Assembly (NCBI RefSeq): GCF_014698845.1
Contig: NZ_JACJTV010000006.1
Coordinates: 124,001-188,000 of the forward strand
Length of the DNA: 64,000 bases
Direction of reading: 5' to 3'
Origin: Coleofasciculus sp. FACHB-1120
GTDB taxonomy: Bacteria > Cyanobacteriota > Cyanobacteriia > Cyanobacteriales > FACHB-T130
Position 1 is the first letter of the stretch, and every line of letters begins with the position of its first letter. Below are positions 48,853 through 64,000 of the stretch, one piece after another. The notes below the pieces were generated by a model. That model saw only the letters and a program-made list of their open reading frames with translations, ran no database searches and was not told the DNA's origin. A program made the position numbers and the translations under genes.

Positions 48853-49728
48853 ATGGAGACGCTTGCCTATCTTTATGTAGCAGTCGCTTACGAGGAAACG
48901 ACAGATCCTCTAACTTTTCCAGTTCTAGAGAAGTTAGAAATTTTTAAGGATCTCGACCGGCAAAAGCTTTCTAGCACAGCGACTAGCTATTTGCTATCAC
49001 TAGCGCTAAATCTAGTTTTCCTCAGTTTGCTCCACAGTGCTAACGCAATACAGACAGAGGATAGGGGTGCTGAAGTGACGGCTTTGCAAACAAACTTGAT
49101 GGCAGCTAACTACTATAAGGGACCGATCACTGGATACTACGGCAAGTTGACAGAGGCAGCAGTGAGGCGCTTCCAAGCAATCAGTGACTTAGACGCTGAC
49201 GGCATTGCGGGTTCCGAGACCCTAGCCGCCTTAAAGCAATATCTGGAGAGCAAAACTAAGAAAAGTAAGAAGTCGCCCAAAACTCCGCAGACGAGTGCAA
49301 TGACCGTTGGTAAGCGCGGGTTGCGACTGGGCGATCGCGGCCCAGAAGTCACCGAAGCTCAGGAAAGGCTGAAAGCGGCTGGTTTTGACCCAGGTTCGAT
49401 TGATGGAAAATATGGTAGGAAAACTGAGCAAGCGGTGAAGCGCTTTCAAGTGGCGAGGGGTTTAAAGATTGACGGCATTATGGGTCGGGAAACCTGGTTT
49501 GCCGCCGGGTATCTTGCGACTTCAAATTCTCCTTACTCGGTGATTGTAATGGCTGAGACTACCGAGACGCTGCGCCAAGTGCGCCAGTATGTACCAAATG
49601 CTTATCAGGACTCTAGTAGCGATTCAAATATTCAGGCAGGAGCATTTGCCAATGAGTATGGGGCAGAACGCCAGTCACAAATGTTGCGATCGCAAGGATT
49701 GAATGCACGAGTGGTATATCGCCGATAG
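48853..49728 (+). CDS. METLAYL-leader peptidoglycan-binding protein 1, with SPOR-like end
   Basis: 291 residues. The N-terminus METLAYLYVAVAYEE is conserved with the two downstream genes. A polar stretch follows, then a hydrophobic core (about 46-66: SLALNLVFLSLLHSANA) like a signal peptide with an unusually long n-region. Two PG_binding_1 domains follow (68-126 and 156-215; RGAEVTALQTNLMAANYYKG, RGPEVTEAQERLKAAGFDPG). The C-terminal 70 residues carry the SPOR-like phrase IQAGAFANEYGAERQSQMLR and end ARVVYRR. All this points to a cell-wall-bound periplasmic protein. No catalytic domain is present. Confidence 0.85.
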   Translation: METLAYLYVAVAYEETTDPLTFPVLEKLEIFKDLDRQKLSSTATSYLLSLALNLVFLSLLHSANAIQTEDRGAEVTALQTNLMAANYYKGPITGYYGKLTEAAVRRFQAISDLDADGIAGSETLAALKQYLESKTKKSKKSPKTPQTSAMTVGKRGLRLGDRGPEVTEAQERLKAAGFDPGSIDGKYGRKTEQAVKRFQVARGLKIDGIMGRETWFAAGYLATSNSPYSVIVMAETTETLRQVRQYVPNAYQDSSSDSNIQAGAFANEYGAERQSQMLRSQGLNARVVYRR

Positions 49729-49790
49729 AGAGTGCGATTTGATGCAATCAATCGGCTAGACTGGCGTTAAAATCTATACTCTAAAAAGTA

Positions 49791-51005
49791 ATGGAAACCC
49801 TTGCCTATCTTCATCTAGCCTTAGTCTACGAAACACCTGTACAAGAAGCCGGTGTTTCTCCGGTTGGGGAAAACCAGGAATTTCTAACCGGATTGAATTG
49901 GAAAAAGCTTTCTAGCCACGCAACGATTCACTTTCTATCGATTGCCGTTGCCTTAGCGATGCTAGGAATCGCTTCTCAGGCGTTAGCACAGAGAACGCTG
50001 AAACAAGGCGATCGCGGTTCTGAGGTACGCGCACTACAACAGCGGTTACAGGCGCGAGGCTTTAGTGTACCTGCTACTGGAAATTTTGGCTCGAAAACTA
50101 GAAATGCGGTGATTCGATTCCAGCAAGCCAATCGGCTCACACCAGATGGGATTGTCGGTCGAGGAACCAGGGCAGAATTATTTAATCAAGTTAGACCGAC
50201 TATAAGCCAAACCTTCAACAATGACCCATTTACGCTGCCACCTCCGGACAGGATTCTCGACTCTGTTCCGGACAACCCTACACTGTCTGCTCCCAACATC
50301 CCTACACTGAGGGCAGAAAATATCTATCCAGAAGATAACTATTCAGAAGATACTTATGCAGACATCAGGCTTGTCCAACAACAGTTAGTGAGGGCAGGTT
50401 TCAACCCCGGTTCTATTGATGGAGCCTTTGGCCCAAAAACGGCGCGAGCTCTCAGAGAATTCCAGGGAAGTGTAGGTTTATACCCTAGCGGGACGATTAC
50501 TTCAGAAACGCTGCGCGCACTAGAGGACGACATTGCCGGTCGTCCAAGTCAACAACTGAGCGACTACAGCAACTGGAACGCCCGGAGTCGGAGAAGTCTC
50601 CAACCCGGCGATCGCGGTTCCGAAGTCGAGGATCTCCAACGACGATTGAGCGACCAAGGCTTCAACCCTGGTGGCATTGATGGGATTTATGGTTCCAATA
50701 CCCAGCGAGCTGTCAGGCGGTTCCAGCAGGCTCGGCGTTTATACCCGGATGGCATTGCAGATGCACGAACCTTAGGGGAATTAGGAATTAATTTTGCTGA
50801 GAATCGCTACGTGGTAGTCGTACCTGGGAATAACCAAACGTTGAATAAAGTCCTCCGCTATGTACCCAATGCGGATCTCGGACCGAAATCGAAACGAGGT
50901 TCCTATGTAAATGCAGGGGCTTTTTCTACTCGACATCTTGCGGAAAGCCGCTCCGAGTTACTGCGATCGCGCGGACTAGATGCACGAGTGGTATATCGCC
51001 CCTAG
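49791..51005 (+). CDS. METLAYL-leader peptidoglycan-binding protein 2, three domains and SPOR-like end
   Basis: 404 residues. It has the same leader (METLAYLHLALVYETP) and the hydrophobic core at about 45-66 ending ASQALAQ. Three PG_binding_1 domains follow: 68-127 (KQGDRGSEVRALQQRLQARG), about 186-247 (IRLVQQQLVRAGFNPGSIDG) and 262-322 (QPGDRGSEVEDLQRRLSDQG). The spacer between domains 1 and 2 is Pro/Asn/Asp-rich. The C-terminal region VNAGAFSTRHLAESRSELLR, RGLDARVVYRP is SPOR-like and matches the end of gene 1. The gene sits 62 bases downstream of gene 1, so the two probably arose by duplication and are co-transcribed. Confidence 0.85.
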   Translation: METLAYLHLALVYETPVQEAGVSPVGENQEFLTGLNWKKLSSHATIHFLSIAVALAMLGIASQALAQRTLKQGDRGSEVRALQQRLQARGFSVPATGNFGSKTRNAVIRFQQANRLTPDGIVGRGTRAELFNQVRPTISQTFNNDPFTLPPPDRILDSVPDNPTLSAPNIPTLRAENIYPEDNYSEDTYADIRLVQQQLVRAGFNPGSIDGAFGPKTARALREFQGSVGLYPSGTITSETLRALEDDIAGRPSQQLSDYSNWNARSRRSLQPGDRGSEVEDLQRRLSDQGFNPGGIDGIYGSNTQRAVRRFQQARRLYPDGIADARTLGELGINFAENRYVVVVPGNNQTLNKVLRYVPNADLGPKSKRGSYVNAGAFSTRHLAESRSELLRSRGLDARVVYRP

Positions 51006-51092
51006 GCACTGGTATGGTATAGCTAGTTGATGAAATTGACCTTCTTAAATTGACCCTCTTAAACTGTCTATCAAGAGTTTGCCAGTAAAATT

Positions 51093-52460
51093 ATGGAAAC
51101 CCTTGCCTATCTGCATCTTGCCCTGATCTACGAAGCATCTACAAACAGCGAGTTTCCTCTAATCTGGAATAGCCAAAAAATTTTTGAAGGACTAAACCGC
51201 CAAAAGCTTTCTAGTCGAGCGAGTTTCTATTTACTATCGCTTTTTGTCTCCCTGAGCGTCTTGGGAATGTCTCAAGCTTTCGCAATGCTTGAGCCAGGAA
51301 ACACCGGCTCGGAGGTAGCCACTCTCCAGCAGCGCTTGCAGCAGCTAGGCTATTTCAAAGCAGGTATCACAGGCAATTTTGGTCCAATTACGACGCAAGC
51401 TGTGATCCAATTCCAGAAAGCGAATGGGTTGGAACCGGATGGCATTGTGGGACCGCAAACCGAAGCCGCCTTACAGAAAAAGCGAGGTAGGCCAAACCAG
51501 GCACAGGTCAGCCAAGTTCGGCAGGTCAGACAGGTCAACCAACGTTTCCAGTCTTTTAGACAACGTCCACAGCGGGTTAGCAAGGCTTCTCAGGTCAGCC
51601 AACGTCCCAGGAGTGGAGTCCTACAGGAAGGAGACAGGGGCCCGGAGGTAGTAGCCCTCCAGCAACGGTTGCAAAAACAGGGCTATTTTCAGGCAAAAAT
51701 CACTGGTTATTATGGTCCGCTCACGAAAGCAGCCGTCAACCGATTTCAGCAAGCGGCGGGAATGCCAGTGGATGGCATTGTCGGTTCGGATACCCAGGCA
51801 GCTTTGCTGGGTGTGGGAGGCACAGAGGATCGGACTCCGCCTAAAAATATCGCTTCTAGTGGACAGATCCTACAGTTAGGCAGTAACAACCGGGAGGTGG
51901 TAGAACTCCAGCGACGGTTGCGGAAACTGGGAATTTTGCAAGGTGCCATGACTGGCTACTTCGATCAAGACACCAAAGACGCTGTGATTCAGTTTCAGCA
52001 AGCCCAAGGTTTAACAGCTGATGGAATCGCTAGACCCAATACTATATTGGCTCTGAAAAATACAAGCGATCGCTTTAATACAGCTTCGAGTCGACAGATC
52101 CTACAGTTAGGCAGTAATAACCGGGAGGTGGTAGAACTCCAGCGACGGTTGCGGCAGCTGGGAATTTTGCAAGGTGCCATGACTGGCTACTTCGATCAAG
52201 ACACCAAAGACGCCGTAATTCAGTTTCAGCAAGCCCAAGGTTTAACGGCTGATGGAATTGCTAGACCCAATACTATATTGGCTCTGAAAAATACAAGCGA
52301 TCGCTTTAATGTAGTGTCCTTACAAAAGCGTCTGAAAGAAAACGGCTTTTATCGCGGTCCGTTAAATGGAATTTTTGAGGCACAAACTAAAGCAGCAGTC
52401 GAAGCTGCCCAGCGTGCTTATGGTCTTAGTGCTGATGACATCGTGAAGGGGCGTTTTTAA
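51093..52460 (+). CDS. METLAYL-leader peptidoglycan-binding protein 3, five domains
   Basis: 455 residues. It has the leader METLAYLHLALIYEAS and hydrophobic core about 47-66. PG_binding_1 units lie at about 68-127, 180-238, 255-318 and 332-395, with a partial fifth from 395 to the end (VSLQKRLKENGFYRGPLNGI). Units 3 and 4 are nearly identical copies of 77 residues. There is no SPOR-like end, unlike its neighbours. A Gln/Arg/Ser-rich spacer (135-175) includes repeated QVRQ/QVSQ. It is the closest of the three to furA and runs towards it (80-base gap), the position held by the cell-wall gene alr1690 in Anabaena PCC 7120. Confidence 0.85.
   Translation: METLAYLHLALIYEASTNSEFPLIWNSQKIFEGLNRQKLSSRASFYLLSLFVSLSVLGMSQAFAMLEPGNTGSEVATLQQRLQQLGYFKAGITGNFGPITTQAVIQFQKANGLEPDGIVGPQTEAALQKKRGRPNQAQVSQVRQVRQVNQRFQSFRQRPQRVSKASQVSQRPRSGVLQEGDRGPEVVALQQRLQKQGYFQAKITGYYGPLTKAAVNRFQQAAGMPVDGIVGSDTQAALLGVGGTEDRTPPKNIASSGQILQLGSNNREVVELQRRLRKLGILQGAMTGYFDQDTKDAVIQFQQAQGLTADGIARPNTILALKNTSDRFNTASSRQILQLGSNNREVVELQRRLRQLGILQGAMTGYFDQDTKDAVIQFQQAQGLTADGIARPNTILALKNTSDRFNVVSLQKRLKENGFYRGPLNGIFEAQTKAAVEAAQRAYGLSADDIVKGRF
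51861..52310. repeat. Near-perfect 231-base tandem duplication inside the third wall-binding gene
   Basis: Two copies at a period of 231 bases (77 codons), for example ACAGATCCTACAGTTAGGCA at 51863 and again at 52094. Only a handful of bases differ, mostly silent; the only visible internal residue change is Lys/Gln in RRLR(K/Q)LG. Recent duplication or gene conversion is indicated. Confidence 0.9.

Positions 52461-62572: not shown

Positions 62573-64000
<1,428 letters not shown>

Follow-up and report, generated by a model that had tools for sequence, protein, structure and literature searches.

A conserved motif placed N-terminal to the core of a Sec signal peptide can choose the site at which a protein is secreted, as with the YSIRK/GXXS extension, by which some staphylococcal wall proteins reach the cross-wall (PMC5962339). 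Another N-terminal extension, ESPR, precedes the otherwise normal n-h-c signal peptide of autotransporters (PMC2805444). The septal roles of the septal-junction proteins FraC, FraD, SepJ, SjcF1 and SepT of filamentous cyanobacteria have been reviewed (PMC6463045). How wall proteins of these organisms are delivered, to the cross-wall as against the side wall, is an open question, and a concrete handle on it is offered by a 14-residue tag at the start of three tandem genes in a 64,000-nucleotide stretch of Coleofasciculus sp. FACHB-1120 DNA (this whole stretch is the window referred to below). The products, predicted secreted wall-binding proteins, all begin METLAYL, and the tag is here termed the METLAYL leader.

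YSIRK/GXXS is the closest working analogy for the leader, being likewise a conserved motif that lies ahead of the Sec core and is carried by some wall proteins only, though the two are unrelated by sequence. While YSIRK/GXXS belongs to Gram-positive cocci, the METLAYL leader is in diderm cyanobacteria, is acidic, occupies residues 1-14 about 25 residues before the core, and occurs also in stand-alone proteins; its choice of a site is putative. In layout the closest analogy is ESPR of autotransporters and two-partner secretion proteins, as METLAYL too is an extension before a signal peptide (the hydrophobic core starts at a median of residue 44 in the leader family, interquartile range 40-48), but here also the sequences are unrelated, and the cargo is wall-binding proteins rather than outer-membrane autotransporters. 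Neither a YSIRK...GXXS motif nor an ESPR family match is present in genes 1-3, with no Pfam match for either up to E 1. The septal-junction proteins come from the same group of organisms and one of them, FraC, co-occurs with the leader; no paper found reports a METLAYL leader, SjcF1 and SepT not having been compared by sequence. No description of the leader was found in Pfam, NCBIfam or PDB, no PDB sequence matched its profile, and a search of the open-access literature yielded no description and one false hit by sequence.

A signal function for the leader is well supported by its wide occurrence, by the several unrelated domains that follow it and by protein-level constraint above that of the mature domains. 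The preliminary description of the three genes had suggested a targeting or processing signal; the signal part of this idea stands, whereas processing at the leader itself, or any particular destination, does not gain the same support. In 49 non-overlapping, independent pairs of related leader proteins, the ratio of nonsynonymous to synonymous change (pN/pS; 95% bootstrap intervals in brackets) is lowest for leader residues 2-14, at 0.16 (0.11-0.22), with 0.41 (0.34-0.48) for the linker, 0.30 (0.24-0.36) for the core and 0.28 (0.25-0.31) for the mature part. Conservation at the RNA level was considered and rejected, as synonymous identity is near the codon-usage expectation and similar to that of the PG-domain (peptidoglycan-binding domain) codons. 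There is codon bias at leader codons 2, 10 and 12 (GAA at codon 2 in 73/77, GCC or GCT at codon 12 in 55/59), perhaps a start-region effect. With leader pN/pS low and synonymous codons about as expected, the constraint acts on the peptide.

The preliminary description had called for a search for the leader in other cyanobacteria and for a look at the domains behind it, and this was rewarded. The leader collection was made partly by regular expression, and counts vary with profile thresholds. With a profile of the first 18 residues only (A4, 70 sequences), matches have E values of 1e-9 to 1e-5 per genome and are at the start codon in all those examined. The proposed family signature is M-[ED]-x-L-A-Y-x-[HY]-x-A-x-x-Y-E, beginning with the start codon; the window genes carry it, together with the protein-level constraint, and belong to the proposed family. 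When 84,980 species of bacteria and archaea were scanned, all 64 confirmed leader loci proved cyanobacterial, and no matches were found in viruses or plasmids. Those loci that have a genus name are in filamentous genera, among them Trichocoleus, Microcoleus, Nostoc, Anabaena, Brasilonema, Symploca, Moorena, Oscillatoria, Laspinema and Roseofilum; Nostoc and Anabaena are genera with genetics, where the tag is open to deletion, to transfer and to use as bait. Among 386 sampled cyanobacterial genomes the filament-integrity protein FraC, used as proxy for filamentous habit, is credibly present in 78 (two marginal hits in a distant family being set aside), and the leader, at E<=0.01, in 60. All 60 leader-positive genomes are FraC-positive (Fisher p about 1e-54, a p-value that ignores shared ancestry), and none of the 308 sampled genomes without FraC has the leader at that threshold. 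These E values, and its absence from the 308, make the leader more than a chance match. The worry raised with the first description, of a leader confined to one locus and free of constraint, thus did not materialize, as it extends far beyond the locus and is more constrained than the mature domains. At least nine of the 18 FraC-positive genomes that have no E<=0.01 match have diverged forms, for example MEYMAYSYMYMANEE, MENLALMHAAIGHE and MESLGYPHLAAAYRS. It is undetectable in the FraC-positive genomes G002, G066, G207 and G349 of one genus and G051 and G233 of another, lineages that may have lost it and whose filament biology can usefully be compared with that of leader carriers.

In the window the three genes are on the + strand and encode 291, 404 and 455 residues. 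As first described, all three begin METLAYLxxAxxYE, with M1-L7, A10, Y13 and E14 invariant among them, and the translations of the open reading frames (ORFs) agree; the reading frame 5′ of each ATG is closed within 2-10 codons, leaving no alternative start. The 14-residue block is followed by a variable linker and then a second conserved stretch (W+KLSS.A), which is the n-region of an ordinary signal peptide. The unusually long stretch noted before the core was likewise found, with a Sec-type core starting near residue 40-44 in each gene and closing with AxA. PG-binding units, earlier counted as 2, 3 and about 5 along the array, are 2, 3 and 5 with Pfam PG_binding_1 (PF01471), at bit scores of 139, 188 and 295 against a gathering score of 23, and in gene 3 a tandem duplication of 231 nucleotides, 95% identical, accounts for units 3 and 4. 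The SPOR-like ends reported for genes 1 and 2, and absent from gene 3, are indeed homologous tails, yet at 18.9 and 17.0 bits they fall below the Pfam cut-off of 21 for SPOR (PF05036), and the best PDB match, the CwlC SPOR domain 1x60, is insignificant (E 0.064). The features are as follows.

48853..49728, + strand: gene 1, leader, signal peptide, 2 PG_binding_1 units and SPOR-like tail, 291 residues
48853..48894, + strand: leader of gene 1, METLAYLYVAVAYE
48970..49047, + strand: signal-peptide core of gene 1, ending SANA, with putative cleavage judged by the AxA motif
49063..49233, + strand: PG_binding_1 unit 1 of gene 1
49336..49497, + strand: PG_binding_1 unit 2 of gene 1
49528..49725, + strand: SPOR-like tail of gene 1, sub-threshold
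49791..51005, + strand: gene 2, leader, signal peptide, 3 PG_binding_1 units and SPOR-like tail, 404 residues
49791..49832, + strand: leader of gene 2, METLAYLHLALVYE, modelled with low confidence as a helix at 3-13
49914..49988, + strand: signal helix of gene 2 (residues 42-66), ending SQALA
50013..50180, + strand: PG_binding_1 unit 1 of gene 2
50358..50522, + strand: PG_binding_1 unit 2 of gene 2
50613..50777, + strand: PG_binding_1 unit 3 of gene 2
50799..51002, + strand: SPOR-like tail of gene 2, sub-threshold
51093..52460, + strand: gene 3, leader, signal peptide and 5 PG_binding_1 units, 455 residues
51093..51134, + strand: leader of gene 3, METLAYLHLALIYE
51210..51284, + strand: signal-peptide core of gene 3, ending SQAFA
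51303..51473, + strand: PG_binding_1 unit 1 of gene 3
51636..51806, + strand: PG_binding_1 unit 2 of gene 3
51846..52307, + strand: 231-nucleotide tandem duplication (95% identical) with PG_binding_1 units 3 and 4 of gene 3
52308..52436, + strand: PG_binding_1 unit 5 of gene 3, incomplete

Searched with a profile built on the three N-termini, the same genome yields the leader at three further unlinked sites, on a protein of 207 residues with two PG-binding units (L004), on one of 194 residues with SH3-like and PG-binding parts (L006), and as a leader-only ORF of 60 residues without a hydrophobic core (L005, 1498-1680). Twelve other PG_binding_1 proteins of this genome that were examined have no leader, several of them with ordinary signal peptides and several with none, and so the leader is not required for export or wall binding; it marks a subset. 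In most carriers across genomes the order is leader, variable linker, basic stretch (often W+KLSS), core and AxA motif, with net charge of about -2 in the leader and about +2 directly before the core. An AxA-type motif follows the core in 122/129 carriers, against 61/129 for a control stretch. The basic n-region and the hydrophobic core (modelled in gene 2 as the helix at 42-66) are those of a Sec/signal peptidase I (SPase I) signal peptide, with cleavage after AxA putative. The bodies behind are diverse: PG_binding_1 repeats, SH3_3 repeats, PG-binding with a beta-propeller, and Lys/Tyr-rich secreted proteins without Pfam match. The beta-propeller proteins (L062-L066, L237; 526-853 residues) combine leader, PG-binding repeats and a YVTN/lactonase-like propeller. 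Secreted leader proteins rich in Lys, Tyr and His and without Pfam match (L208 1097-1528, L209, L212 1986-, L213), some in tandem pairs, are possibly structural envelope or sheath proteins. Small proteins with leader and a transmembrane (TM) helix (L076, L080, L081) end soon after that one hydrophobic helix. A weak internal match in L067 was dropped as a TPR-like repeat.

Some leader proteins consist of little else. These leader-only proteins, of 40-62 residues and mostly without hydrophobic core, are syntenic within families (L005 1498-1680, L073, L075, L077-L079, L202-L206 and L212 494-), and the tails in one family have conserved cysteines. Along their length pN is less than pS, and leader pN is below tail pN in each pair; that they are pseudogenes was rejected on this and on the synteny. 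With neighbours named by inspection, orthologues in one family (L291-L294) are beside dnaG in four genomes, those of the window's own family (L285, L288, L296) are in a glycosidase/sigma-factor context and those of a third (L289, L290) in a phycobilisome/pseudouridine-synthase-like context. Neither they nor the leader-TM proteins show a convincing known family in Pfam or NCBIfam, and the leader-only kind, small proteins with the same tag, form an unannotated class. Because they exist without a signal peptide, the leader is more than part of a secretion signal.

The leader's place at the start codon, its translation, constraint, distribution and modularity are observed properties. They are read here, tentatively and with somewhat less than even confidence, as those of an N-terminal sorting or docking module (METLAYLxLAxAYE) that precedes a complete signal peptide and would serve as an address to be read before export. 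What suggests this is its place before the signal, its presence on a subset of wall proteins of which it is the best conserved part, the unrelated bodies behind it and its restriction to filament-formers. The leader, short, hydrophobic and probably helical, would bind a receptor while the preprotein is still cytoplasmic. The receptor would occur only in filamentous cyanobacteria, in association with translocon, membrane or division site, and Sec would take over the preprotein at a chosen place in the envelope, most likely at the septum or in the growth zone. Cleavage by signal peptidase after AxA would follow, with the wall-binding domain staying at the site of release. The leader-only proteins, not themselves exported, would be ligands of the same receptor and could compete for it or regulate it. 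A more specific version, in which a cytoplasmic or septal receptor reads the leader on a filament-specific route to cross-walls or septal-junction sites with the leader-only microproteins as soluble regulators, is unlikely in that full form. A weak pointer to the septum comes from the SPOR-like tails of genes 1 and 2, which would go well with septal glycan.

Several points weigh against a sorting module. The association of leader with FraC is confounded by shared ancestry, and the leader-only proteins, lacking a hydrophobic core, are a misfit for a pure secretion signal. AlphaFold models the leader helix at 3-13 at low confidence only (gene 2 residues 1-140, 77 aligned sequences; confidence score pLDDT about 60), with the linker poorly defined and the PG-binding domain confident. 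No conserved binding face was found in the leader, helical and strand periodicity of conservation being insignificant; a conserved helix face had been suspected by eye and is not claimed (moment at 100 degrees, p about 0.5-0.6; at 180 degrees, p 0.085).

The leader could instead set the pace of export in the manner of ESPR, slowing or chaperoning the handover to SecYEG or keeping the preprotein unfolded with no choice of site. The layout equals that of the autotransporter extension before a normal signal peptide (PMC2805444) and the carriers are repeat-rich wall proteins, but leader-only cytoplasmic proteins have no cargo to export, similar PG-binding proteins of the same genome manage without a leader, length and sequence are unlike ESPR with no ESPR match in Pfam, and the restriction to filament-formers is left unexplained, so that pace control is unlikely though by no means negligible. 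If the signal were an uncleaved anchor, the leader would be a permanent cytoplasmic tail tying a cytoplasmic partner to the wall via a single membrane helix. It does look like a docking peptide, and the small carriers L076, L080 and L081, ending soon after one hydrophobic helix, speak for it; the excess of AxA-type motifs after the core over the control makes this rather improbable. That the leader is primarily the ligand of a cytoplasmic regulator, for feedback on the export of wall proteins or for sensing stress in it, sorting being secondary and the leader-only form original, draws on the conservation and synteny of leader-only genes in several families and on their having the strongest constraint in the leader; since most carriers are exported proteins and no shared regulatory neighbour was found, it is quite improbable. 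Inherited baggage from one ancestral gene, or an RNA or DNA element at the translation start, would fit the old, syntenic site with usually one leader gene and the mild codon bias, but is very improbable, being largely refuted by the leader pN/pS, the unremarkable synonymous identity and the occurrence of the leader on unrelated bodies and alone.

Returning to the window, the presence of the heterocyst master regulator HetR at 62573-63547 on the - strand (NCBIfam NF009718, 569 bits) fits a filamentous cyanobacterium. The METLAFHHF start of the same ORF was rejected as a leader, as it comes from a spurious upstream start and the HetR model matches from residue 26.

The site of the three tandem genes is old, and the array arose there by local expansion from one ancestral gene for a wall protein. 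In many other genera it is flanked on the left by yidC and genes for R3H/Jag-like, DUF177-like, Ycf46-type ATPase and SH3 proteins and on the right by Fur, a sigma factor, gpsA and lipA (names by inspection). There is usually one leader gene between them; Symplocastrum has two, Trichocoleus and the window's genus three, and another member of the family four. As most other genera with the site have one such gene, the rise from 2 to 5 PG units is local, its last step being the recent 231-nucleotide internal duplication. One genome (G019) has on contig C48, at about 151937-151975, a truncated remnant of a leader, L300; it lies in a 21-codon frame near Fur and sigma-factor genes and may be a copy that has decayed at the ancestral site.

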